Part shown: positions 27,721-40,823 of the stretch, in pieces | Layout of the letters: each line of letters begins with the position of its first letter | How positions within the stretch are numbered: position 1 is the stretch's first letter | Assembly: GCA_024398365.1 (NCBI GenBank) | Contig: JAKSJG010000011.1 | Coordinates: 1-41,434 of the forward strand | Source: Bacteroidales bacterium | GTDB taxonomy: Bacteria; Bacteroidota; Bacteroidia; Bacteroidales; UBA932 | Direction of reading: 5' to 3' | Length of the DNA: 41,434 nucleotides | The notes under the pieces: generated by a model | What the model was told of the DNA's origin: nothing | What the model saw: only the letters and a program-made list of their open reading frames with translations | The model's database searches: none | Made by a program: the position numbers and the translations under genes

Positions 27721-29619
27721 ATGAACAAATCATATATTACTATTCTGGCATCGGCGCTGATGCTTGTATCCTGCAGCGAAAGCGGCTTGAATCCGGAGGA
27801 CAGCTCTATCCGCTGCACTGTGGAGAGCATTTCCACAAGAACATCTCTCGTCAACAACGATGGCAGATACGATATCCATTGGGAGCAGGGAGATATTGTT
27901 GCCGTCAAAAGTGATGCCGGCACAACACTCTACGTGACATCCGAGAGCGGCACCACGACAGCCAGTTTCTCCAAGAAATCCGGCAATGACCCGGCAGGGG
28001 AAATCTTCACGGCATATTATCCGCAGGAGCTCGCGGACGGATACCTTCCTTCTGAACAGAATTACCGCTCAAACAACATATATCATTCTCCGATGATAGC
28101 GTCAGCGACCGGTACAGACTTTCAGTTCAGGAATATCTGCGGCATCTTGAAGCTCAACCTCACCACCGCCGAAAGCAACGTTAAGGTCACATCTATCGAA
28201 CTGATGTCCGATGTCGGGCTCAGCGGTGATTTCTCCATCGTTGACGGAGCGGCTGTCGTTTCAGGGGCAAAGGGCATTAAGCTGAACTGCGGCATGGGAG
28301 TGTCGATATCCGCCGACCCGAGGCCGTTCCATTTCTCCGTTCCGGCGGGGGACTACACCAATTTCACAATCATAGTCAGGACATCGGACCACAGGGCTGT
28401 CACGGCATCGCTCAGGAGCGGATCGGTATTCGAGGTGAAGCGTTCGCAGATCTGTGAACTCAATATGAATCTTGCTTCGTTTGAAGACATATCAGCAGGA
28501 GAGGGCCGTGCCATCCTGATGAACGGCACTGAAGTCAATGAGCGCATCAAGGAGCTTTCAAGCTCCACCGCGAGAGTATCGACCATGAACTCCACATTCA
28601 AGAAAATCGAGTTCAAGACAGGATGCTTCGACAAAGCAGGAGTGGACATCAGCGACCCTTCTTCAGAAGTTCCGGTATATGCGTCGCTGAAGAACAATGT
28701 CGTGACTATTTATACACCGGCAGCCGAACTTTACACCAATGAAAGCCCGGCATATATGTTCTATTATATGAGCGGCGTGACGGAGATCGTCAACCTGAAA
28801 GCGCTCAATACTGAGAACGGAGTCTATTTCAACAATATGTTCCATATGGGCGACTCGCTCTCAAAAGTCACTAGCCTTGACCTGAGCAACTTCAACACAA
28901 GCAAGGGCTTCAACTTCAAGTCGATGTTCAACAGCTGCTCGAGCCTTACAGAACTCGATGTCAGCAACTTTGACACATCCAACGGATCCTATTTCAGCTT
29001 TATGTTCGACGGATGCATGAACCTCAAGTCATTGGACCTCAGCAATTTCAATACTTCAAAGGCAATCACCATGGAGTATATGTTCAGGGACTGCCAGGCT
29101 CTCGAGTCCATCAATCTGTCTTCATTTGACACGCAGAACGTAAACTGTACAAAGTATATGTTCTGCCGCTGCAAATCCCTCAAGGAGCTTAACATCGACA
29201 GTTTCACCTGTCCTAAGGTCAACAATACCTCTTATATGTTCAGCACCATGGAAAGCATTGAGGTCATCAGTATGAAGAACTTCAGTTTCAAGAGCATCAC
29301 GACGTCCGACAACATGGAGTATATGTTCTACAATGAGCCGAACCTCAAGGAAATATACTTCGGAGAGGATGCATGCCCGATCGGCGCAAAGCTTACGCCT
29401 TCAAGCTTCTTCCTAAGCAAGGCCAATGCCATGGGATTCAGGACAGCCTCCAATACCGGCAAACTTGACATCTGGTGCTCATCAGAGACGGCCAAGTGGC
29501 TTGCGAAGACCAACCTGCGCTGGATAAACAGCGGATATAACGGTCAGACAAAGATCCCGGTAACATTCCATGATTATCAGACCGGTGCCTCAATCAAAGT
29601 AACTTGGTCAGCGAATTGA
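27721..29619 (+). CDS. fimbrillin-like / DUF285 (BspA-type repeat) surface lipoprotein
   Basis: 632 residues. Lipobox LVSC (Cys18) is followed by acidic residues. A fimbrillin-like module spans about 30-260 (IHWEQGDIVAVKSD, FTAYYPQEL, FHFSVPAGDYTNFTI). A bridging beta region comes next. About six DUF285 repeats of 24-25 residues follow at about 378-540, each of the form LDLSNFNTSK...MFxxCxSL. The tail ends FHDYQTGASIKVTW. BspA-type repeats are linked to adhesion and host or polymer binding, so a surface binding role is likely but unproven. It is close in architecture to the lipoprotein at 38687-40666. The helicase gene overlaps its end by 16 nt. Confidence 0.85.
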   Translation: MNKSYITILASALMLVSCSESGLNPEDSSIRCTVESISTRTSLVNNDGRYDIHWEQGDIVAVKSDAGTTLYVTSESGTTTASFSKKSGNDPAGEIFTAYYPQELADGYLPSEQNYRSNNIYHSPMIASATGTDFQFRNICGILKLNLTTAESNVKVTSIELMSDVGLSGDFSIVDGAAVVSGAKGIKLNCGMGVSISADPRPFHFSVPAGDYTNFTIIVRTSDHRAVTASLRSGSVFEVKRSQICELNMNLASFEDISAGEGRAILMNGTEVNERIKELSSSTARVSTMNSTFKKIEFKTGCFDKAGVDISDPSSEVPVYASLKNNVVTIYTPAAELYTNESPAYMFYYMSGVTEIVNLKALNTENGVYFNNMFHMGDSLSKVTSLDLSNFNTSKGFNFKSMFNSCSSLTELDVSNFDTSNGSYFSFMFDGCMNLKSLDLSNFNTSKAITMEYMFRDCQALESINLSSFDTQNVNCTKYMFCRCKSLKELNIDSFTCPKVNNTSYMFSTMESIEVISMKNFSFKSITTSDNMEYMFYNEPNLKEIYFGEDACPIGAKLTPSSFFLSKANAMGFRTASNTGKLDIWCSSETAKWLAKTNLRWINSGYNGQTKIPVTFHDYQTGASIKVTWSAN

Positions 29620-32423
29620 TCCATAGCACAGGCCTTCCGGCCGTTGAGATTGCGGACGAAGTCAATGAGACTCTCGTCCGCAATTCCTGTGTAGTTGTGA
29701 CTGCGCCTCCGGGTGCCGGCAAATCCACTGTCCTGCCACTGACAATTTTGGATGGCGCTGCCGAGGCGGGCAAAGTCATTGTCCTCGAACCCCGCAGGAT
29801 CGCAGCAAGGCAGATTGCCGAACGTATGGCATTCCTCAGTGGAGACGCCGTCGGCGGCACAGTGGGCTACCGTGTCCGTTTCGAGAGCCGTGTGAGCGCC
29901 GCGACACGCGTGGAAGTCCTCACCGAGGGCATCCTGACAAGGATGATAGTGGATGACCCGACCCTTGACGGCGTATCCGTCCTGATCTTCGACGAATTCC
30001 ACGAACGCAGTCTCAACTGCGACCTTGCATTGGCGCTGGCGCTACGGACGCAGCGCATCATCCGTCCCGACCTGCGCATCGTCATCATGTCCGCGACGAT
30101 TGAGGCCGAAGACATTTGCCGCAAGCTGAATGCGCCTCTGGTGCAGTCTGCCGGGCGTCTGTTTCCTGTAGAGAATATATATTGCGAGCCGTGCGACATG
30201 CGCGAGGCCGCCCGCGACGTGGCCCGGACGGTGCTGCGCGCGCTGAGGGAGCAGGAGGGTGACGTGCTGGCGTTCCTGCCCGGCGAGAATGACATCCGCC
30301 GCTGCGCTGAAATGCTCGCCGAATCTCTCGGCGGCGATGATGGTGCCACCGTCCGCATCTGCCCGCTTTACGGGATGCTGCCTTTCGAGCAGCAGAACAG
30401 CGCTCTCAGGCCGGCGGCGGCAGGCGAACGCAAAGTAGTGCTCGCCACACCCATAGCGGAGACGTCGCTGACCATCGAAGGGATACGCTCGGTCGTTGAC
30501 AGCGGCTTATACCGCCGGCAGATAGCCGATCCGCAGAGCGGTCTGGGGCGGCTCGAGACCTCGCAGATCAGCATGGACATGGCCCGCCAGAGGGCCGGCC
30601 GCGCCGGACGACTCGGCCCCGGCGTATGTTACAGACTCTGGCAACAAAGCGACGAGACTCGCATGAGGCCCTGCCGCGTACCCGAAATACTGGAGGCCGA
30701 TCTGGCCCCGATGATGCTTCAGATTGCCGCCTGGGGCGGCTGCGCGGCATCCGAACTGGACTGGATGAGTGCTCCTCCTGCAGGCGCCATGGCCAAGGCC
30801 ACATCCCTGCTGCAGCTACTGGGTTCCCTCGATGAGAAGGGCCTGGTCACCGCTCACGGCCGCCGCCTGGCTGCCATCCCTTGCCATCCGCGCATCGCCA
30901 ATATGCTCTGCGGCGCCGGCGCCGGGACTGACGGTCAGGCTTCCGCCAGTTCCGGCAGGGGCGGTGCCGGGACTAGCGTTCCCGCTCCAGACGGAGTATC
31001 AGCTCCGGCCGCTTCTGCCGGTCCAATGTCTTCAACCAGCTCCCGCGGTCCGGCCCTGGAAGCCTCGCAGGCCCTTGCAGCGGACATTGCTGCCCTGCTG
31101 GACGAACGCGACCCGATGGCCCGGGACACTGCGGACACTGACATCAGCCTGCGTCTGAACGAACTCCGCAGGCAGCGGTCCTCGCGTCACCCGCAGGCTC
31201 GCTGGAACAATATCATCAAGGGAGCGCAGCAATATCTCAAGCTGCTGCATGTCCCTGAAAACAACGATACCGTAAGCGGGTATGAGGTCGGTGCGCTGCT
31301 AGCCACAGCCTATCCGGAGCGCGTCGCAAGACAGCAGAAGGAAGGCTGCGGGCATTTCCTGCTGGCCAATGGGGAGACAGCCCTGGTGGACAGGCAGGAT
31401 TTGGTGGCTGCCTACGACTGGATAGCCGTCGCCAATATGAATTCCGCCAAAGGCGGGGAGGGGCGCATCTTCCTGGCGGCGCCGCTCGATCCCGGGACCG
31501 TGCCGGAACTCATCCGCAGCCGCGACCGCCTCTCCTGGGATGCTCGCAAGGGAGCCGTCGTGGCGGTGCGCGAGCGCAATATCGGCTGCCTCAACCTTGA
31601 TTCGCACCCGCTGGCGAATGTCTCCGCCGATGCCGTTCTGCAGGTCCTCTGCGAGGCTGCGCCCAAATACGGCCTGACTATGTTCGATTTCTCCGATGAT
31701 GTGGCCAATCTCCAGAGGCGTGTCGCCTGCGTTGCCGCATGGCATCCCGAGCTCGGCCTGCCGGACCTCTCCACAGATGCGGTGCTAGCATGCGCAGACC
31801 ACTGGCTGCCAGGCTTCTACGCAGGAGGAGGTGCTCTCTTATCTGGAGGGGGGACTTTCGCAGCTGGACGCAGTAATCTCTCATCCAGAGCTGGTGCCGG
31901 TTCATCCGGAGGTGGAGCTCTCTCATCCGGAGGTGAAGCTTTCGCAGCCAGAGGTGGGGCAGGTTCAGCCGGAGCGTCAGGCTCAGCTCCTCTCTCGGCT
32001 TCTCTCTCGGCGGCGTCGGTCGCTTCGCTTCGCCGCATCGATCTTTGTGCAGCGCTCTGGTCATTGCTTGACTACGAACAGCAGCGCTCTGTTGACCGCA
32101 TCGCGCCGCGGCACATCGAAGTGCCTTCCGGCAGCCGCATCCCAGTCGAATACCGCCAGGGCGCCGAAAATCCCATTCTGCGCGTGCGCATACAGGAATG
32201 CTTCGGCATGGCTGACTCGCCGCGCGTGGACGGAGGTGCGCGCCCTGTGCTGCTGGAGCTCCTTTCGCCAGGCTTCAAGCCGGTGCAGCTCACCGGCGAC
32301 CTGCGCAGTTTCTGGAGCGAAGGCTATTTCGAGGTCCGCAAAGAACTCCGCCGCCGCTACCCGAAGCACTTCTGGCCTGACAACCCGCTCGAATCCGAGG
32401 CCCGCCGCGGCGTCCGCAAATAA
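29604..32423 (+). CDS. hrpB: ATP-dependent RNA helicase HrpB with low-complexity insertions
   Basis: 939 residues. Start is TTG 29604 or TTG 29616; no ATG lies near, and both overlap the upstream stop region. Motif I is APPGAGKST, motif Ia EPRRIAARQIAERMA, motif II IFDEFHERSL (the DEFH variant usual for HrpB), motif III MSATIEAE, motif VI QRAGRAGRLGPGVCYRLW. The C-terminal HrpB_C domain ends KHFWPDNPLESEARRGVRK. Two Gly/Ala/Ser-rich inserts are atypical: about 435-490 and about 735-795, the second encoded by a 21-bp minisatellite. Its cellular role in bacteria is poorly defined. It may be cotranscribed with the surface lipoproteins. Confidence 0.9.
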   Translation: MVSELIHSTGLPAVEIADEVNETLVRNSCVVVTAPPGAGKSTVLPLTILDGAAEAGKVIVLEPRRIAARQIAERMAFLSGDAVGGTVGYRVRFESRVSAATRVEVLTEGILTRMIVDDPTLDGVSVLIFDEFHERSLNCDLALALALRTQRIIRPDLRIVIMSATIEAEDICRKLNAPLVQSAGRLFPVENIYCEPCDMREAARDVARTVLRALREQEGDVLAFLPGENDIRRCAEMLAESLGGDDGATVRICPLYGMLPFEQQNSALRPAAAGERKVVLATPIAETSLTIEGIRSVVDSGLYRRQIADPQSGLGRLETSQISMDMARQRAGRAGRLGPGVCYRLWQQSDETRMRPCRVPEILEADLAPMMLQIAAWGGCAASELDWMSAPPAGAMAKATSLLQLLGSLDEKGLVTAHGRRLAAIPCHPRIANMLCGAGAGTDGQASASSGRGGAGTSVPAPDGVSAPAASAGPMSSTSSRGPALEASQALAADIAALLDERDPMARDTADTDISLRLNELRRQRSSRHPQARWNNIIKGAQQYLKLLHVPENNDTVSGYEVGALLATAYPERVARQQKEGCGHFLLANGETALVDRQDLVAAYDWIAVANMNSAKGGEGRIFLAAPLDPGTVPELIRSRDRLSWDARKGAVVAVRERNIGCLNLDSHPLANVSADAVLQVLCEAAPKYGLTMFDFSDDVANLQRRVACVAAWHPELGLPDLSTDAVLACADHWLPGFYAGGGALLSGGGTFAAGRSNLSSRAGAGSSGGGALSSGGEAFAARGGAGSAGASGSAPLSASLSAASVASLRRIDLCAALWSLLDYEQQRSVDRIAPRHIEVPSGSRIPVEYRQGAENPILRVRIQECFGMADSPRVDGGARPVLLELLSPGFKPVQLTGDLRSFWSEGYFEVRKELRRRYPKHFWPDNPLESEARRGVRK
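31818..31985 (+). repeat. 21-bp in-frame minisatellite inside hrpB
   Basis: Eight degenerate 21-bp units encode seven-residue repeats such as SSGGGAL, SSGGEAF, AARGGAG and YAGGGAL. DNA words like TCATCCGGAGGTG recur at this spacing. The length, 168 bp, keeps the reading frame. It lies between the helicase core and the HrpB_C domain, in what should be a linker. Confidence 0.75.
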
Positions 32424-32763
32424 TTCTGCTTCGATGATGGCACCTCATCCGGTTGAATCATAACTTACTTTATCAGCATAGCCCACCTGGTTGACGGCTG
32501 CCACGGATTCACCGCCGTCCACGAGGGTGAAAGTACCCTTTGTCGTGACATCGGCGAGCATCTACGCCTTTGCCTTGATGCATGGCATTCCTCAGCGGGG
32601 ACGCTGTCGGCGGCACGGTGGGCTACCGCACCAATCCGATCCTCAAGCTGAACAGCTTCTTGCATGCGCTCTTACTCTCTTACACCCGTGCGCTGTTGTG
32701 CCGTTGCGCTCATTTGCCCTTGCGCGTAAGTGCCTGCCTGCCAGTCTGTCCGCCTTCGCGCCG
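32424..32763. other. gene-free stretch with coding relics
   Basis: No intact gene is supported here. It contains a 48-bp copy of part of hrpB (32582-32629). On the minus strand, a 38-codon frame (32445-32561) reads like protein sequence (TTKGTFTLVDGGESVAAVNQ) but has a stop codon directly before its ATG. The stretch ends where the first 108-bp palindromic element begins, so it looks like decayed DNA next to a mobile unit. Confidence 0.5.
32582..32629 (+). pseudogene. 48-bp hrpB fragment (residues 75-90 equivalent)
   Basis: Encodes MAFLSGDAVGGTVGYR, identical to HrpB residues 75-90 (29826-29873). The five base differences are all at third codon positions and silent. Similarity stops abruptly on both sides. 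It is therefore a remnant of a second, once-functional hrpB copy or a captured fragment. Confidence 0.75.
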
Positions 32764-32871
32764 GTGGCACCTAACCGTCTGACTATCTGGCATTTCAACG
32801 GGTACCACCTGCGCAAAATCGTGCAGGTGACATACTAGCAATAGCCTATGGCACAGCGGTTTAAGTGACAC
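32764..32871. repeat. 108-bp palindromic element, copy A
   Basis: Starts GTGGCACCTAA and ends TTAAGTGACAC. The central hairpin (CACCTGC/GCAGGTG) is at 32806-32829, exactly 42 nt from each end. The last 11 bp overlap the 3' end of the RAYT-like gene and supply its stop codon. The loop reads CAAAATC, opposite in sense to that expected from the arms and from copy B. Confidence 0.85.
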
Positions 32872-33781
32872 GGCGATTGAGGTGCAGAAACTTCCTCAAT
32901 TGTTTGCGAGTGGCTCCTGTGGCAGTGGCAAGAGTTTTATACACACTGTTAAGTTCCTCTGAATCAATTGTTTCAAAATTCACATTGGCAGGATAACCAA
33001 GCTTCTTGAGCACTTTTACCATTTCGGCATATTTGCCATAATCATCCCAGTCGTCCTCAATATCATATTCGCTGCCGCTGGTGCTTTCAATCGCAGCCAG
33101 GGCATTCTCATAATTATCGAATCTCTTTTCAAGCTGATCATAATCAATTATCCGATACCGAGATACAATATAATCTATCAGCTGTTCAGTCTCTGCTGGA
33201 TTCAGCCCGTCAAACAGCTGGTCAATCAGATCATAATTGATTGGATAGCCATGGTCATTGTAATAATCCACCAATTTCAATGCTCTGGTCAATCGTCTGG
33301 AGCATTTGGAGCGAACTGCCGGAAGTGAATACGGATGATCTGAATACCTGTATGCCAGAAGATTCCATCGATAATCCATTGCCTTCGGACAAATATTGCC
33401 AATAACGGGATTGTTGAAAATGTAAATCAGGCTTGACACGGCAGTCTTAACCACGACCTTCGGGGCGCCTCCGAAACGAGGCTTGAACAAGGAGCCATGC
33501 CGCTGATGATAATGATTGTATTCCTGAGCAAATTCTGACTCCAGACGGCAGATCAGCATAGAAACAACATCCTTCTTACCGTCTATGAATAGAATGTGAT
33601 AATGGTTGATCATCAGGCAGAACGCTGATACTTTCAACCTATATTTCCGAAGCAAAACTGAAAGCCGGCAGATGAAAACCAGGCAATCCTTATAACTGTA
33701 GAAAATGCAGAAGCCATATATGCCTTTACTGCATGCGTGGTATGGCGCACCATCCACGAAGCGACGTTGTCTTCCCTTCAT
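32861..33781 (-). CDS. REP-associated tyrosine transposase (RAYT-like, IS200/Y1 HUH superfamily)
   Basis: 306 residues. The N-terminal half has the Y1/REP-associated transposase layout: RFVDGAPYHACSKG, then VSAFCLMINHYHILF with the HUH-type pair His60 and His62, then FAQEYNHYHQRHGSLFKPRFGG, where Tyr88 or Tyr91 is the expected catalytic tyrosine. The rest (about 130-306) is a charged helical extension, perhaps a DNA-binding domain. Related proteins nick single-stranded DNA at hairpins. It is one gene, not a full IS200/605 with TnpB. It is AT-richer than the neighbouring genes, suggesting a different history. Its stop codon lies inside palindromic element A. Confidence 0.85.
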   Translation of the reverse strand: MKGRQRRFVDGAPYHACSKGIYGFCIFYSYKDCLVFICRLSVLLRKYRLKVSAFCLMINHYHILFIDGKKDVVSMLICRLESEFAQEYNHYHQRHGSLFKPRFGGAPKVVVKTAVSSLIYIFNNPVIGNICPKAMDYRWNLLAYRYSDHPYSLPAVRSKCSRRLTRALKLVDYYNDHGYPINYDLIDQLFDGLNPAETEQLIDYIVSRYRIIDYDQLEKRFDNYENALAAIESTSGSEYDIEDDWDDYGKYAEMVKVLKKLGYPANVNFETIDSEELNSVYKTLATATGATRKQLRKFLHLNRRVT

Positions 33782-33863
33782 ATCTATTTCACAAAAATGT
33801 CGTAAGACAAAAATAGAAACTTCTTTTCATAAAGCAATCAACACTGGAATCTAATTTATACGC

Positions 33864-33971
33864 GCGGCACTTAAGCACCTAATTATCAGCGATATCGACC
33901 CATGTCACCTGCGCGATTTGACGCAGGTGGCATACAGGCAAAGCGCTATGGCACAGGGATTTAGGTGCCAC
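33864..33971. repeat. 108-bp palindromic element, copy B
   Basis: Starts GCGGCACTTAA and ends TTAGGTGCCAC. The central hairpin (CACCTGCG/CGCAGGTG) is at 33906-33929, again 42 nt from both ends. It lies 82 nt upstream of the RAYT-like start codon, so it may overlap that gene's promoter. The gap 33972-34087 that follows holds nothing recognisable. Confidence 0.88.
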
Positions 33972-34087
33972 GATGGCAAGCCGCCCCAATCGTGCGACAG
34001 ACAGGGTAAGGCCTGCAAAACCGGCAAATGAAGCGATATGAACAGGGAATTTGACAGGATGTCTGTATAGGAAGTGATAATTATAGC

Positions 34088-34095
34088 TAATTTTG
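34088..34095 (+). promoter_or_regulatory. -7 element TAATTTTG of the FKBP gene
   Basis: Perfect TAnnTTTG, 27 nt before ATG 34123. It includes the TTG codon at 34093, arguing against an upstream start there. Confidence 0.6.
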
Positions 34096-34122
34096 CTGAA
34101 CAGTCACCAGCAGAATCATAAC

Positions 34123-34539
34123 ATGTTCAAGAAAGCAAAAGAAAAGAAGGCGCAGTACAAGCTCGCCAACGAGAAGTTCCTGGAGCAGAAAGCGCAGGAA
34201 GAGGGGATAGAGGCCCTTGAGAGCGGCATTTTGATGCGCTGCATCGAGAAAGGCACGGGAGAGCGCAGGCCGCAGCTCAATGACGTGGTGTCGGTGTACT
34301 ACACCGGCAGTCTCATAGACGGCACGGTGTTCGACACTACGGACGGGCAGGATTATCCTGCGGCCTTCAAGGTACGCGACCTGATTGTCGGCTGGCAGGC
34401 GGCGCTGCTGCGCATGCATGCCGGCGACAAGTATGAGATATTCATTCCTGCCAAATACGCCTACGGCTCAATGAAGCTCGACGACATCCCCGCCAACAGC
34501 ACGCTGGTGTTCACTCTGCAACTGGTGCGCATACATTGA
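34123..34539 (+). CDS. FKBP-type peptidyl-prolyl cis-trans isomerase
   Basis: 138 residues from ATG 34123 (MFKKAKEKKAQYKL), cytoplasmic because no signal peptide is present. After a charged helical N-terminal segment (about 1-40) comes a single FKBP domain: DVVSVYYTGSLIDGTVFDTT, VGWQAALLRMHAGDKYEIFIPAKYAYG, then STLVFTLQLVRI. The active-site aromatic residues are mostly kept (YYTG, VFDTT, YAYG), so isomerase activity is plausible. Bacteroidales usually carry secreted FKBPs with such N-terminal helices, so the absence of a signal is worth noting. Confidence 0.9.
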   Translation: MFKKAKEKKAQYKLANEKFLEQKAQEEGIEALESGILMRCIEKGTGERRPQLNDVVSVYYTGSLIDGTVFDTTDGQDYPAAFKVRDLIVGWQAALLRMHAGDKYEIFIPAKYAYGSMKLDDIPANSTLVFTLQLVRIH

Positions 34540-34568
34540 GTGCTGTTGCACCAATCAGCAATATTGTC

Positions 34569-34576
34569 TAAATTTG
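34569..34576 (+). promoter_or_regulatory. -7 element TAAATTTG of pyrC, predicting a leaderless mRNA
   Basis: Perfect TAnnTTTG ending only 4 nt before ATG 34581. A -33 TTG lies at 34546-34548, 20 nt upstream, the usual spacing. Transcription should start at or next to the A of the start codon. Confidence 0.65.
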
Positions 34577-34580
34577 GGAT

Positions 34581-35936
34581 ATGAATTACCTGATTAAAAA
34601 CGCCTCCGTTGTCAACGAGGGGAAGGTCTTCGAAGCCGACGTACTGGTGGCGGAAGGTCTGATTGCGGCTATTGGCAGCGGTCTGGAGTCGAACAGCAAA
34701 GCCTCAGGCGCACATATCATAGACGCGCGGGGCAAGTACCTGATACCCGGCGTCATCGACGAACACGTGCATTTCCGGGATCCGGGCCTGACGCAGAAAG
34801 CGGACATTTTCACGGAGAGCCGTGCGGCCGTGGCCGGCGGAGTGACTTCGTTCATGGACATGCCCAACACCGTACCGCAGACCGTCACCCGCCAGCTGCT
34901 CGAGGAAAAGTTCGCAATGGCCTCCGAGAAATCCCTGGCCAACTATTCCTTCTATTTGGGAGCCACCAATGACAATCTGAGCGAGGTCCTTGGCATGGAC
35001 AAGTCTGCCGTTTGCGGCATCAAGCTCTTCATGGGTTCGAGCACGGGCAATATGCTGGTGGACAGCGACGGTGCGCTGGAAGCACTATTCCGCGAAGCGC
35101 CGTGCCTCATCGCGGCCCACTGCGAGGACGAGGCGACTATCAGGCAGGATACGGCGCGCTGCAAGGAACTGGTCCAGGCGGGACAGCTGCCTTCCGACGC
35201 GACGATACATCCGCTCGTGCGCAGCGCAGAGGCCTGCTACAGGTCCTCCTCACGTGCCGTGGAACTGGCCGCCCGTACCGGCGCGCGCCTGCACATCATG
35301 CATATCTCGACCGCAGCCGAGCTGAGCCTCTTCCGCAACGACATTCCGCTGGCGGAGAAAAGGATCACAGCCGAGACCTGCCCGCACTATCTGTATCTGG
35401 CACAGGAGGATTACGCGGAGCTGGGATTCGGCATCAAATGCAACCCTGCCATCAAGACGCAGGACGACCGCGCGGCACTGCGCAAAGCCCTCTGCAGCGG
35501 CCTGATCGACACCATAGGCACGGACCACGCGCCGCATCTGAAGGAAGAGAAATTCACCGGCGACTATTTCACCAGCAAATCCGGCTTCCCGTCCATTCAG
35601 CATAGCCTCGACATCATGCTGGAGCTCGTGCGGGAAGACGTGCTGACGCTGCCCCAGGTCGTGCAGCTGATGTGTCACAATCCGGCTACGCTCTACGGCA
35701 TCGACCGCCGCGGCTTCATCCGCGAAGGCTGGCACGCTGACCTGGCTCTCGTGGACACAGAGTGCAGCAAGACCCTCGCCGACGCGACAGAGTTCTCCAA
35801 ATGCGGATGGACACCTTACGCTGGCCGCACATTCCACTCCAGGGTCACCCACACCTTCGTCAACGGCAATCTCGTCTTCGAAAACGGCATTTTTCACGAC
35901 GACAGCCGTGGTGAACGTCTGCGATTCAATAATTGA
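34581..35936 (+). CDS. pyrC: dihydroorotase
   Basis: 451-residue amidohydrolase closing carbamoyl-aspartate to dihydroorotate in pyrimidine synthesis. Zinc ligands HVH (His62, His64, in IDEHVHFRDPG), the carboxylated-lysine position GIKLFMGSSTG (Lys148) and the catalytic Asp315 (GTDHAPHLKEEK) are visible. The start MNYLIKNASVVNEG fits the family exactly, which matters because it leaves almost no leader. The 108-bp repeat array begins 29 nt after its stop. Confidence 0.92.
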   Translation: MNYLIKNASVVNEGKVFEADVLVAEGLIAAIGSGLESNSKASGAHIIDARGKYLIPGVIDEHVHFRDPGLTQKADIFTESRAAVAGGVTSFMDMPNTVPQTVTRQLLEEKFAMASEKSLANYSFYLGATNDNLSEVLGMDKSAVCGIKLFMGSSTGNMLVDSDGALEALFREAPCLIAAHCEDEATIRQDTARCKELVQAGQLPSDATIHPLVRSAEACYRSSSRAVELAARTGARLHIMHISTAAELSLFRNDIPLAEKRITAETCPHYLYLAQEDYAELGFGIKCNPAIKTQDDRAALRKALCSGLIDTIGTDHAPHLKEEKFTGDYFTSKSGFPSIQHSLDIMLELVREDVLTLPQVVQLMCHNPATLYGIDRRGFIREGWHADLALVDTECSKTLADATEFSKCGWTPYAGRTFHSRVTHTFVNGNLVFENGIFHDDSRGERLRFNN

Positions 35937-35965
35937 TTTTTGCCGCCGCTTCCTCCCGCGTGAGC

Positions 35966-36331
35966 GTGGCACTTAAATCCTTGCCGCACAGAGGCTTAGC
36001 ATAGTGGCACCTGCGCAAAATCACGCAGGTGGAGCTAGGCGATTACGCTGATAACCAGAGCATTAAGTGCCACGAAGCCGCGACAAAGATACCTGTGGCA
36101 CTTAAATCCCTGCAGCACAGAGGCTTAGCATAGTGCCACCTGCGCAAAATCACGCAGGTGGTACTGGGTGATTGCACTGATAATCAAGTCGTTAAGTGCC
36201 ACGAAGCTGCGACAAAGATACCTGTGGCACTTAAATACCTGCCGCACAGAGGTTTAGCATAGTGCCACCTGCGCAAAATCACGCAGGTGGTACTGGGTGA
36301 TTGCACTGATAATCAGAGCATTAAGCGCCAT
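35966..36331. repeat. tandem array of three 108-bp palindromic elements (129-bp period)
   Basis: Copies are at 35966-36073, 36095-36202 and 36224-36331, separated by a conserved 21-bp spacer (GAAGCYGCGACAAAGATACC-T type). Each starts GTGGCACTTAA; the first two end TTAAGTGCCAC, the third TTAAGCGCCAT. Central hairpins CACCTGCG/CGCAGGTG with loop CAAAATCA are at 36008-36031, 36137-36160 and 36266-36289. Copies differ from each other at roughly 9-14 of 108 positions by eye. The array lies between convergent gene ends (dihydroorotase and a HAD phosphatase), the usual place for REP/BIME repeats. Relative to copies A and B it is inverted. Confidence 0.92.
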
Positions 36332-36380
36332 GAAGCCGCGACAAAGGTGCAACAAAGCGCCACGGGGATGCCACGCGGCG

Positions 36381-36416
36381 GAAAGGCAGGAAAGGCAGAA
36401 AAGGCAGGAAAGTCAG
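36381..36416. repeat. four tandem 9-bp repeats (GAAAGGCAG type)
   Basis: GAAAGGCAG, GAAAGGCAG, AAAAGGCAG and GAAAGTCAG run without interruption between the palindrome array and the stop codon of the HAD gene. It is non-coding, probably slippage-prone. Confidence 0.7.
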
Positions 36417-36420
36417 GAGC

Positions 36421-37068
36421 CTACAGGATAAAGCCGAGAAGCTCCGGGAGGGTGTCGGCAATGTAGGCGGGCGAGGCTGTCTGCAGCTGTGCGCGGGACT
36501 GGTTGCCCCAGGTCACGCCGCAGGTGTCGCAGCCTGCAGCATTGCCCATCAGAAGATCGTAGTTGGCGTCACCGACTACCAGCACATCCTTCGCATCCAG
36601 GCTGAAGCGTTCCAATATGAGATTGACCATATCGGGCGCAGGCTTGTGGTTGGCCACGTCCTCGGCTCCGCAGAACATCTCAAAGTAATGGTCTATGCCC
36701 AGCTTTTCCGCCAGCAGTTCGAGGCTCTGGTGGCTGCGCGAGGATGCTATTGACATCCTGACGCCAGCCTCGTGCAGGGTATGAAGCATTTCCGGCACAC
36801 CGGGGAATGCCACTATGCCGGGGATGGCAATGCTGTTGAACAGACGGCGGTAGATGACCACCGCGCTGTCGGCCTCCGCATCGCTAAGGGTGGGGACGGC
36901 CTTCAGGAAGCCGTCCTTGAGCATCAGACCGATGGTCGAAGATATGACGGTCTCGCCGGGATCCGGGATGCCCATCTCGGCGAATGTAGCCTGGAAGGTC
37001 TTCACGATGCCGGTATTGGTGTCGCCAAGAGTGCCGTCGAAATCGAAGATTACGTAACTGTATGCCAT
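36421..37068 (-). CDS. HAD-superfamily phosphatase (phosphoglycolate-phosphatase-like)
   Basis: 215 residues from ATG 37068, one base after the stop of the DUF2461 gene; an earlier in-frame ATG would overlap that gene. HAD motif I is FDFDGTLGDT, motif II is in MSIASSRSHQSLELL, motif III is the Lys in NHKPAPDMV, and motif IV is VVGDANYDLLMGNAAG. The C1 cap inserted after motif I is helical, as in phosphoglycolate phosphatase or beta-phosphoglucomutase relatives. Substrate is unknown. Motif IV has DANYD where DxxxD is expected, which is consistent. Confidence 0.85.
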   Translation of the reverse strand: MAYSYVIFDFDGTLGDTNTGIVKTFQATFAEMGIPDPGETVISSTIGLMLKDGFLKAVPTLSDAEADSAVVIYRRLFNSIAIPGIVAFPGVPEMLHTLHEAGVRMSIASSRSHQSLELLAEKLGIDHYFEMFCGAEDVANHKPAPDMVNLILERFSLDAKDVLVVGDANYDLLMGNAAGCDTCGVTWGNQSRAQLQTASPAYIADTLPELLGFIL

Positions 37069-38686: not shown

Positions 38687-40666
38687 TTACCAGGTAGCTG
38701 AGAGAGGCTCGCCGGTTACCATGTCAACGAACTGGATGTCAACGGTAGGCTGGCCTTCGGTACCGAACTTCACCCATCTGAAAGCGCCGACTCCGGTAGC
38801 CCAGTCTGCAATATTCTGGGTAGTGTGGATGATGAGCTTGCCAGTGGTGTTGCAGAGGCAGGTTCTGTTATTGGCAACTGTCTGTGTCTTGGCAACCACG
38901 AGGAAGTTAGTGTAAACCGTATTAGGCTTTGAACCGAAATTCGGGTTAAGCCAGAGTTCTTCAAGTGCGCCAAGCTGGTTCATCATACTGCTGACACCGG
39001 TTATTACCCTTTCACCAGTGGAAATAGTTGTTACGGTGAATTTCGAACCGTCAAATCCGGAAAGATCAAGCATCTTGACTTTGTAGCAGCTATTGAACAT
39101 ATTTGCGCAGGTAGTTGCCACTGGGGTCTTGAATGACGATACGTCAAGCTTCAAGAGGTTCTTGCAGTAATAGAACATATATGAGAACGTAGTCACCTTC
39201 TGAGTATCGAAGCTGCTCAGGTCAAGTTCGGTGAGGCCCCAGCAGTGATAGAACATATAGGTCATGGTGGTGACGTTGCTTGTGTTGAACTTGCTCAGAT
39301 CTACGCTCTTGAGAGAGTTGCAGTTGCAGAACATATGGTTCATGTAGATTGCATTCTTCGTGTCGAAGCTGCTCAGGTTGACCTTCTCGAGATTCCATGC
39401 GGTATTGAACATGGATGCGAAGTTGGTAACGTTGCTGGTGTTGAAGCTGCTCAGGTCGAGTTCCTTCAATGCCAGATTGCCGGTTACCACTGCCGTATTG
39501 GTCTCGTTGTTGAAGTAGAACATCTTGGACATATTGGTGGTCTTCGAAGTATTGACTGCAGCGAGATTGTCAAATCCTTCGAGGCTGCACAAGTATGCGA
39601 ACATAGAGGTTGCGTTTTCGTTCATGTAGAGGACCTTCGCAGGGGTGCTGACGGTCACGACGCTCTTGTCGGCATTGGCCTTGACATAGATCTTGTTGCC
39701 TGACTTGCTATCCTGGATCTCAGTACCTTCGGTGCTTGAGTCCTCTGTAACGAAAGCGATGGTCTTGATCTTCTTGTCAATGACTGTCTCGCTTGTGATG
39801 GCGGCAGGGTCGTCGGCCACGAGCTTCTTGAGCGTGGTATTGAATACGATGCCGGCAGGGAGGATGGCTGTTTCATCCTTCTTGCTGACCACGGTCAGAG
39901 GAAGGGTATAGAGGCCGTTGGCCAATATCTCGGTGGCACTTTCCCTGGTGATTATCATTCTGCCGCCGTCGGCGCAGAAAATGGTGATCTGGAGGTCAGT
40001 GTAGTTGCCATCAGGCACTGCTACGCAGAATGAAGTAGCCTCGGTGCTGCTGAGAGCCACGCCCTCGCCGCAGTCCAGAGTGGCGGTAGGTTCTTCGTTG
40101 GAGAGTATGGTGGCGCACTGTCCGTCATAAGTGACGAAAGTGCCGGCCATGCCGTATTCCTCCGAAGTCACGCTGATGCCGGTGACGGCAGTCTCGCCCT
40201 TGAGCTGGAACTCGATCACGCCGCAGATGTTATTGAAGGAGAGGGAAGTGGTTCCGCTCTCGGCAAACATAGGCGCGTTGAGAATGCCAGCGCTGTAAGT
40301 CTGCTTTGCCGGGATCACGCCTTCGCCTGTCAGGGCGTCATAGCAGCATCCGTAAGTAGCATAGTATTGGCCGTCGATCAGCTCAGGATCGGCGTCCGCT
40401 TCATTCTTCTTGGTGAATGTGGCACGGGAAGCGTCGGAAGCGTCCGGTGTTGCAACGTACGCAACGCCGTTGATGGTGATCTCATCACCGGCCACCCAGT
40501 TGACCTTGCCGGCAGTTGTGGCGTCCAGGGCCGTCCTTGTGGCGTCACCTATCTTTGCGGTGAATACCAATGAGTCTCCCTCAGAAGATGAAAAGTCTTC
40601 TCTTGCGCAGGATGCGGAGAGGAAGATGGCTGCAGTGAGCAGCAGGAATTTTGCGATGTTCTTCAT
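38687..40666 (-). CDS. fimbrillin-like / DUF285 (BspA-type repeat) surface lipoprotein, second copy
   Basis: 659 residues from ATG 40666 (MKNIAKFLLLTAAIFLSASC, lipobox SASC, Cys20); the longer frame upstream overlaps the small gene and is rejected. A fimbrillin-like module spans about 25-265 (NWVAGDEITING, YYATYGCC, FCVAVPDGNYTDLQI). About six DUF285 repeats are at about 395-540, for example LDLSSFNTSNVTNFASMF. The C terminus FVDMVTGEPLSATW resembles that of the 27721 lipoprotein. Likely exported to the cell surface as an adhesin-type binder. It is preceded by a strong SD and a 46-codon gene. Confidence 0.85.
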   Translation of the reverse strand: MKNIAKFLLLTAAIFLSASCAREDFSSSEGDSLVFTAKIGDATRTALDATTAGKVNWVAGDEITINGVAYVATPDASDASRATFTKKNEADADPELIDGQYYATYGCCYDALTGEGVIPAKQTYSAGILNAPMFAESGTTSLSFNNICGVIEFQLKGETAVTGISVTSEEYGMAGTFVTYDGQCATILSNEEPTATLDCGEGVALSSTEATSFCVAVPDGNYTDLQITIFCADGGRMIITRESATEILANGLYTLPLTVVSKKDETAILPAGIVFNTTLKKLVADDPAAITSETVIDKKIKTIAFVTEDSSTEGTEIQDSKSGNKIYVKANADKSVVTVSTPAKVLYMNENATSMFAYLCSLEGFDNLAAVNTSKTTNMSKMFYFNNETNTAVVTGNLALKELDLSSFNTSNVTNFASMFNTAWNLEKVNLSSFDTKNAIYMNHMFCNCNSLKSVDLSKFNTSNVTTMTYMFYHCWGLTELDLSSFDTQKVTTFSYMFYYCKNLLKLDVSSFKTPVATTCANMFNSCYKVKMLDLSGFDGSKFTVTTISTGERVITGVSSMMNQLGALEELWLNPNFGSKPNTVYTNFLVVAKTQTVANNRTCLCNTTGKLIIHTTQNIADWATGVGAFRWVKFGTEGQPTVDIQFVDMVTGEPLSATW

Positions 40667-40674
40667 TGTCCTTT

Positions 40675-40680
40675 CCTCCT
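40675..40680 (-). promoter_or_regulatory. Shine-Dalgarno AGGAGG of the second DUF285 lipoprotein gene
   Basis: On the minus strand AGGAGG sits exactly 8 nt before ATG 40666 and 2 nt after the small-gene stop, the same spacing as at the 27721 gene. It fixes the start at 40666. Confidence 0.75.
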
Positions 40681-40682
40681 GA

Positions 40683-40823
40683 TTAATTGTATAACCATCC
40701 GTCAGAGAAATCCTTCGGATCATAGTTCTGGGTGTTGCCGCTGGCGCAGAACACCGACTGCGAGCAGATATCCACGACATCCGTCACAGGTGAAGTGTAC
40801 ACTTCGCTAGATGAATATTTCAT
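40683..40823 (-). CDS. 46-residue cysteine-containing small protein upstream of the DUF285 lipoprotein
   Basis: ATG 40823 gives 46 residues, ending 16 nt before the lipoprotein start. The composition resembles small Bacteroidales proteins often found beside fimbrillin-like genes: Y.SP.T.VVDI.., then SVFCASGN, then an acidic, Trp-containing end (DPKDFSDGWLYN). No signal peptide or membrane segment is seen. It has two cysteines, in DIC-S and VFC-A. Translation could be coupled to the lipoprotein through the SD that directly follows its stop codon. Function is unknown; a role in lipoprotein expression or a secreted peptide are both guesses. Confidence 0.6.
   Translation of the reverse strand: MKYSSSEVYTSPVTDVVDICSQSVFCASGNTQNYDPKDFSDGWLYN

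Follow-up and report, generated by a model that had tools for sequence, protein, structure and literature searches.

The window analysed here is a contig of 41,434 nt (JAKSJG010000011.1, assembly GCA_024398365.1) from the draft genome (1.94 Mb, 79% complete) of a gut bacterium of the order Bacteroidales. It contains a gene for a RAYT-like protein (REP-associated tyrosine transposase; REP, repetitive extragenic palindrome) and five copies of a palindromic element, two of which bracket this Y1/HUH transposase-like gene as the initial annotation had described. REP/RAYT systems are best known from Proteobacteria. Direct reading confirmed all five copies, each of 108 bp and split 42-24-42, such that the central hairpin (CACCTGC..GCAGGTG) lies 42 nt from both ends in every copy (Table 1). 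A length of exactly 108 bp, also proposed by the initial annotation, holds for the window family; length is fixed within each family, and the class as a whole runs from about 104 to 110 bp. The proposed 11-bp terminal inverted repeat stands as a consensus from which some copies depart (over 12 copies, 83.3% of cells are paired). At its 3' end the window RAYT gene runs into the tip of copy 1, which supplies the final Val and Thr codons and, after them, the TAA stop.

Table 1. Coordinates of the elements, the RAYT-like gene and the element parts in the window.
Feature	Position	Strand	Remarks
Element copy 1, 108 bp, 42-24-42	32764..32871	+	3' of the RAYT gene, covering its final 11 nt
RAYT-like Y1/HUH gene, 306 aa	32861..33781	-	NHYH at residues 59-62; YIFNNP with Tyr120
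Element copy 2, 108 bp	33864..33971	-	Upstream of the RAYT gene; both strands score with model R1
Element copy 3, 108 bp	35966..36073	+	Opens the tandem array
Element copy 4, 108 bp	36095..36202	+	Tandem array
Element copy 5, 108 bp	36224..36331	+	Tandem array
Tandem array, three 129-bp units (element + 21-bp flank)	35966..36352		Between a convergent amidohydrolase gene (which we take to be dihydroorotase-like) and a HAD-like gene
Left arm dyad of copy 4 (columns 16-26)	36110..36120		Degenerate in copy 4; cross-family consensus CTGATWATCAG
Central 24-nt hairpin of copy 4	36137..36160	+	Family-specific
Right arm dyad of copy 4, CTGATAATCAA	36177..36187		

The window protein was matched by the NCBIfam model REP_Tyr_transpos (NF047646) at 2.4e-7 (30.7 bits), under the equivalog cut-off of 80 bits that was reached in none of 40 genus genomes, and by Pfam Y1_Tnp (PF01797) at E 0.0025 (18.3 bits against a gathering cut-off of 23). 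All 26 proteins of the family alignment were matched by Y1_Tnp at E ≤ 0.1 (best 7e-11) and by REP_Tyr_transpos at E ≤ 0.001 (best 1.8e-17). Residues H60, H62 and Y120 were invariant among these 26 and among 49 aligned proteins; N124 was also invariant and P125 nearly so, and the resulting YIFNNP fits the Y---NP signature of RAYT/TnpAREP class 2 (PMC6006769; all comparisons with published systems here refer to the available parts of the articles cited). The long C-terminal half returned no confident Pfam domain, with a weak match to the helix-turn-helix (HTH) model HTH_23 in 3 of the 26 proteins at E ≤ 0.1 (best 0.0049). Searching the PDB with the single window protein gave no relevant match; the family profile gave weak matches (E 0.0037 to 0.11) to the transposase chains 2xo6, 2xm3, 2xma, 2ec2 and 2f4f and to TnpArep 4er8. 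The best match in PHROGs had an E value of only 0.086. The invariant His/His/Tyr set, together with Y1_Tnp and REP_Tyr_transpos matches that for the window protein stay below their cut-offs, characterizes the predicted protein as an HUH Y1 protein, RAYT-related but divergent.

A search of the whole genome using model R1, built from 12 copies of the window family, returned at least 23 elements (E ≤ 0.01), of which 16 measure 108 bp and the other 7 measure 106 bp. All five window copies scored E ≤ 3.1e-16; they are among the 12 building copies, to which 11 of the 23 R1 places do not belong. A genome search with copy 4 alone also recovered the family. Three RAYT paralogues are present, the other two being 56% and 48% identical to the window RAYT, and an element adjoins each of them: on both sides at C3, on both sides at C23 (106-bp elements) and on one side at C48, where the contig stops 188 bp upstream of the gene. 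An IS200/IS605 insertion sequence was considered and rejected, as paralogues at these identities are not several near-identical copies; the corresponding subclass 1.1 has a mean of 4.8 copies per genome at 99.4% identity (PMC6006769). Folded as single-stranded DNA, nine copies, including the five from the window, were more stable than their shuffles (z -2.4 to -6.6), and the central hairpin was present in the best fold of eight; in copy 5 it appeared in the centroid only. Window positions 32000-37000 gave no Rfam match at E ≤ 1, so that the element does not belong to a described RNA family. The source genome has another tandem array (L001, G000:C65, 1771-2331), in which three 108-bp elements, flanks included, are spaced at 225-228 bp. 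Large DUF285 proteins, presumably BspA-like, flank the region at window positions 27721-29619 (+) and 38687-40780 (-).

The census of elements beside RAYT genes in related genomes was made with a second model, R2. A strict symmetry scan (hand-set groups of 16 loci with elements on both sides, 6 on one and 24 with none) was rejected for this purpose because it misses odd-length and diverged elements; its labels were clustered on the RAYT tree, the 24 'none' loci corresponding to 8 changes against a shuffled mean of 15.7. With R2, 42 of 46 close RAYT loci in the genus had an element within 400 bp, on both sides in 28 and on one side in 14. These loci comprise the RAYT matches with E ≤ 3.3e-38, weaker matches and a split fragment (G021:C33) being excluded; one, L040, is truncated by a contig end. 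Fourteen of the 46 fed R2, and among the other 32 there were 15 with elements on both sides, 13 on one and 4 with none. Of the 38 loci that possess an upstream element, 16 have its centre 117-124 bp ahead of the start codon. In a set of 80 RAYT loci taken with 1.5-kb flanks from named genomes (the best 80 of 122, overlapping the genus set), 77 contained an R2 match at some position. Bacteroidales or Bacteroidia is the label of 79 of the 80 records, among which ruminant-gut assemblies are numerous; the remaining record is labelled Ruminococcaceae.

Across 40 genomes of the genus, elements were found in 23 of 23 with a close RAYT (E ≤ 1e-20) and in 5 of 17 without (G015, G022, G039, G028 and G029; Fisher 1.1e-6). 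Among 199 genomes of the family the figures were 26 of 26 with a RAYT at E ≤ 1e-50 and 33 of 173 without (Fisher 1.5e-16). Both limits were set after the tables had been seen. When 295 genomes spread over the order were sampled, a RAYT at E ≤ 1e-30 was found in the source genome alone (1/295) and elements in three, namely the source genome and two weak cases. The element searches scored the best 98 (genus), 19 (family) or 13 (order) candidates per genome, with stricter candidate filters in family and order than in genus, such that absence is not proof. The initial annotation had inferred from proximity and family knowledge that the transposase acts on the elements and had named two findings that would speak against this, namely elements widespread in genomes without the gene and RAYT genes usually devoid of flanking elements. 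The counts above largely show the opposite on both points, elements being much rarer where no close RAYT was found and close RAYT genes being usually flanked, and the link between the two is well supported. Two draft genomes, G015 and G145, are rich in elements and had no close RAYT; candidate readings are an absent contig or elements that have survived their enzyme.

In a centre-symmetry test beside the 46 close genus RAYT genes, many palindromes reached 27-36 of 50; 37,600 in-gene control positions never exceeded 25 of 50, coding sequence being an imperfect control. Elements near different RAYT genes follow one plan with differing sequences. Five loci (L051, L040, L041, L061 and L056) were removed by hand before element alignment, and of 38 elements two of 104 bp (L029) were excluded from both alignments, A2 and A3. 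A2 (36 elements of mixed length) was gapped in the stem and unused for pair counts. In A3, which comprises 26 elements of 106 bp, every one of the 13 pairs in the stem, and 7 of the 8 in the tips, showed changes on both sides. Such two-sided changes were counted in 132 cells; the shuffles gave 38.4 +/- 5.1, and none of the 500 reached 132. This covariation is between families and not within the window family.

The modules were examined at 84 of 126 RAYT loci (46 + 80), the best 150 of 312 matches corresponding to 84 places and 78 distinct sequences. The 156 arms of these 78 elements (104-110 bp) have a consensus of TG at positions 2-3 (T2 in 147 arms, G3 in 131) followed by TAA-N4-CTGATWATCAG-N4-TTA and the hairpin. 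The arm block is dyad-symmetric, and we considered whether it forms a hairpin of its own. This was rejected, as mirrored columns paired no more than in shuffles and did not covary (z -2.0 to 1.3); the block therefore resembles a dyad that is read as sequence. Conversely, the six outermost tip positions covaried across the element (z 5.5-10.3), and here R2 itself favours paired tips: it rewards paired stems and tips, so the elements that it selects lean that way. We make no claim for two further features. The tip recurs within its own hairpin, where it might act as a guide, slightly more often than in shuffles (6-mers, 12 of 2000 shuffles; 7-mers, 8; 8-mers, 57), and built-in stop codons were no more frequent than in shuffled sequence. 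Other palindromic structures were also encountered. Upstream of a distant RAYT-like gene at L048 (about 1209-1316, G022) lies a different palindrome with a repeated CCATTGG, symmetric at 36 of 50, perhaps another element class; at L031 and L056, which carry related RAYT genes, hairpins of the TTTCTGTCC..GGACAGAAAG kind that are not standard elements occur nearby, repeated at L031, and possibly represent shortened elements.

Comparison of the elements upstream and downstream of the same RAYT gene (elements within 420 bp of the gene, from the module set) revealed an agreement of 0.77 in the hairpin and 0.76 in the tip, against 0.47 and 0.48 for elements of different genes. The arms hardly differed (0.53 against 0.50). 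None of 5000 permutations reached the observed hairpin or tip agreement over 19 loci, and the top hairpin match was the element's own partner in 15 of them. Furthermore, element similarity followed RAYT protein identity (n=25, sequences related) for the tip (rho 0.62) and the hairpin (rho 0.38), with 0 of 2000 permutations reaching either value, and less so for the arms (rho 0.25; 22 of 2000). From the same-gene agreement and this tracking of the protein, in which the arms hardly share, we infer that tips and hairpin would carry specificity and that the arms would form a common scaffold.

These observations also bear on an origin of the elements as miniature inverted-repeat transposable elements (MITEs) belonging to a double-strand (DDE) transposon that is unrelated to the RAYT and has the same kind of terminal repeats. 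The terminal inverted repeats and the frequent TG..CA ends are in keeping with such an origin, which we nevertheless consider highly improbable, although no search aimed at a DDE transposase with such ends was made: tips and hairpin track the RAYT, a conserved central hairpin between constant arms would be unexpected for a MITE, and the listed flanks held no target duplication by eye.

Published systems offer closer relatives. Bacteroidetes TnpAREP genes of subclass 2.6 have atypical structures on their flanks, of which further copies lie at other places in the genome, and their proteins (mean 179 aa) carry the motifs NH[LIV]H, WQ and YIH[QN]NP (Quentin 2018, PMC6006769). Subclass 2.4 proteins (about 194 aa) carry NH[IFV]H, WQ and YIxNNP and are accompanied by long or double-foot REPs with 5' GT[AG]G and 3' C[TC]AC (PMC6006769). 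TIRYT genes are RAYT-like, and the terminal repeats on either side of them are long or doubly palindromic (Di Nocera 2013, PMC3733652). The REPIN consists of two conserved inverted REPs at the ends of a less conserved spacer (Bertels and Rainey 2011, PMC3116915); like the present element it is symmetric and extragenic and also occurs in tandem arrays with flanks, and the model proposed for it has a RAYT mobilizing it in trans.

With the REPtron (a RAYT/TnpAREP gene and its REPs) the present system shares an HUH/Y1 gene flanked by its own dispersed palindromic family and the co-evolution of enzyme and repeat. It differs in its 104-110 bp elements with constant arm dyads and in a protein of about 306 aa that does not reach the NCBI equivalog cut-off. 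Moreover, a canonical REP is a GT[AG]G foot on a 20-40-nt hairpin, which the elements listed here do not have, GTGG occurring at the tips of some families. The TIRYT/TIRtron (Quentin subclass 2.1) is similar in its long C-terminal extension and in its long inverted, partly self-complementary flanking repeats, some of them dispersed. However, its Y motif differs, its GGGGWSAS motif is not the tip of any element listed here, and fixed geometry and a shared arm motif are not mentioned in the TIRYT text compared. The C-terminal HTH reported for subclass 2.1 is DnaA_C, HTH_23 or HTH_28; the present family gave the weak HTH_23 matches in 3 of 26 proteins described above. Subclass 2.6 has in common with our system the phylum, the atypical flanking structures and the copies elsewhere in the genome, and is set apart by its published description, the window protein having NHYH, F for W in an alignment by eye, YIFNNP and 306 residues. 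Compared with subclass 2.4, the window protein agrees in the Y motif and departs in the HUH residue, the W motif and its length.

The element could be argued to be a REPIN or double-foot REP of a recognised subclass (Quentin 2.4 or 2.6), merely longer. Many tips are indeed GTGG..CCAC and resemble the double foot of subclass 2.4, whose YIxNNP accommodates YIFNNP, and subclass 2.6 supplies a Bacteroidetes precedent with atypical structures. Against this, other tips occur (CTGGAG, CTGCAA, GTAATT, GTTCC and more), the protein is far longer than the subclass means, the tryptophan of the W motif reads as F in the alignment by eye, and ends, arms and central stem are all constrained, the stem being conserved within and covarying between families where a REPIN has a less conserved spacer. 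We regard this identification as unlikely. The initial annotation had suggested an undescribed class. This is right only in part. The geometry is not described in the title or opening abstract of any paper listed by our RAYT/REP, REPIN, TIRYT and REPtron literature searches (earlier listing of single cases is possible); subclass 2.6 and TIRYT had already been reported. We therefore regard the system as a new variant of REP/RAYT-type systems, with the subclass 2.6 atypical structures and TIRYT as its nearest relatives.

Forty-one dispersed copies from five genomes were 58-92% identical within a genome; some may represent one site on two contigs (L166 and one L172 copy have the same flanks). Over 174 within-genome pairs, identity was 0.85 in functional columns, 0.90 in stems and 0.37 in spacers, with 0.25 expected by composition; the copies are among the best-scoring matches, which biases the conservation of functional positions upwards. 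Both neighbours could be called, from simple longest open reading frames, for 33 of the copies, and 19 of these lay between convergent gene ends compared with 7 of 55 element-free neighbouring gene pairs (p 2e-5). Several copies occupy matching sites in different species (L178/L185, L179/L188, L184/L189, L187/L203 and L171/L176). The L187/L203 pair has stems GCTTGCG and GGTTGCG with both sides altered together, and in L178/L185 (G017/G015) the loops are mutually reverse-complementary and the arms keep their orientation, as would result from inversion of the hairpin at its site. From these sequence comparisons the dispersed copies appear old and constrained.

Two gene-end slots were followed between species. 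A 643-aa gene was found in 35 genomes, and 30 loci were fetched, of which two were cut by contig ends. In 12 of the 28 usable loci an element of one of several unrelated families stood at varied offsets 4-70 nt after the stop codon, the source genome included (C13:2370-2475), and 4 of the 16 element-free loci had a terminator-like hairpin. At a second gene, 3 of 15 loci had an element and 4 of the other 12 a terminator-like hairpin; G032 has a terminator where G017 has an element, and the proteins are 99.6% identical. One and the same slot thus varies between species in the element family that fills it, or is filled by an ordinary terminator, and these data suggest repeated arrival or replacement at gene ends, together with a terminator role.

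Such placement raises the alternative that the elements are host-maintained bidirectional terminators or chromosome-structuring sites, the RAYT being a frequent neighbour or a domesticated binding protein and mobility unimportant today. The preference for convergent gene ends, the retention of functional positions by diverged copies and the ordinary terminator-like hairpins at element-free loci of both genes would all be expected. However, terminators alone leave unexplained both the match of tip and hairpin to the neighbouring RAYT family and the co-occurrence of elements with RAYT genes, and the window family has no T-run. This alternative deserves to be taken seriously; on balance we doubt it.

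The combined evidence is best read as a single-strand system of the REP/RAYT type, similar to TIRYT and found in one family of Bacteroidales; its elements may also serve as terminators. Specifically, the gene probably encodes a divergent HUH single-strand nuclease of the RAYT/TnpAREP type, and its cognate non-autonomous substrates are probably the elements. Each element comprises three modules: the short tips at either end, the dyad-symmetric arm block, which is shared by the families examined, and the hairpin in the centre. By analogy with reported relatives, the RAYT protein would bind the folded hairpin in single-stranded, probably lagging-strand, DNA and would cleave and join at the tips, and this strand transfer would have placed copies at gene ends, where they would be retained, often between convergent genes. 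In many families the A/T-flanked hairpin could stand in for an ordinary bidirectional terminator.

Several observations weigh against this interpretation. The system is known here from sequence, with no observed excision or insertion, and the flanks examined by eye revealed no target duplication. The hairpin of the window family has no terminator-type T-run. Pairing in the 12 own-family copies was no better than in shuffles and their tips showed no compensatory change, a consequence of stem and tips that hardly vary. At four of the 46 RAYT loci R2 matched nothing within 400 bp, and elements occur without a close RAYT in the 5 genus and 33 family genomes noted above, some of which hold many (G015, G022, G145; ten or more rows in seven of the 33); these counts are tempered by the incompleteness of many genomes and the presence in some of a more distant RAYT. 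Related genomes are, furthermore, non-independent samples, and the probabilities are only a guide. Finally, the orthology of several copies across species speaks for old, stable sites over present mobility.

A more ambitious form of the proposal can be envisaged, to which we give limited credence. Here, a large set of mutually specific nuclease-element pairs would be built on one scaffold: the arm dyads would be read as double-stranded DNA by a dimeric partner, either a host factor or the C-terminal region of the RAYT, and swappable hairpins and tips would provide the specificity. The elements would then be mobile bidirectional terminators that take the place of ordinary ones at gene ends, and each resident RAYT would keep its own sequence type.

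How a RAYT chooses its element is largely an open question, and the matched enzyme-element pairs in related species, which suggest a distinct branch of the known REP/RAYT systems, offer many naturally varied cases within one bacterial family. Arms and geometry are almost constant among these pairs and the tips and hairpin vary along with the enzyme, so that recognition may be mapped by natural variation. The findings also touch on the old question of whether such repeats serve their host: with copies placed at convergent gene ends, and with varied families or an ordinary terminator in one and the same slot, this question becomes directly testable.

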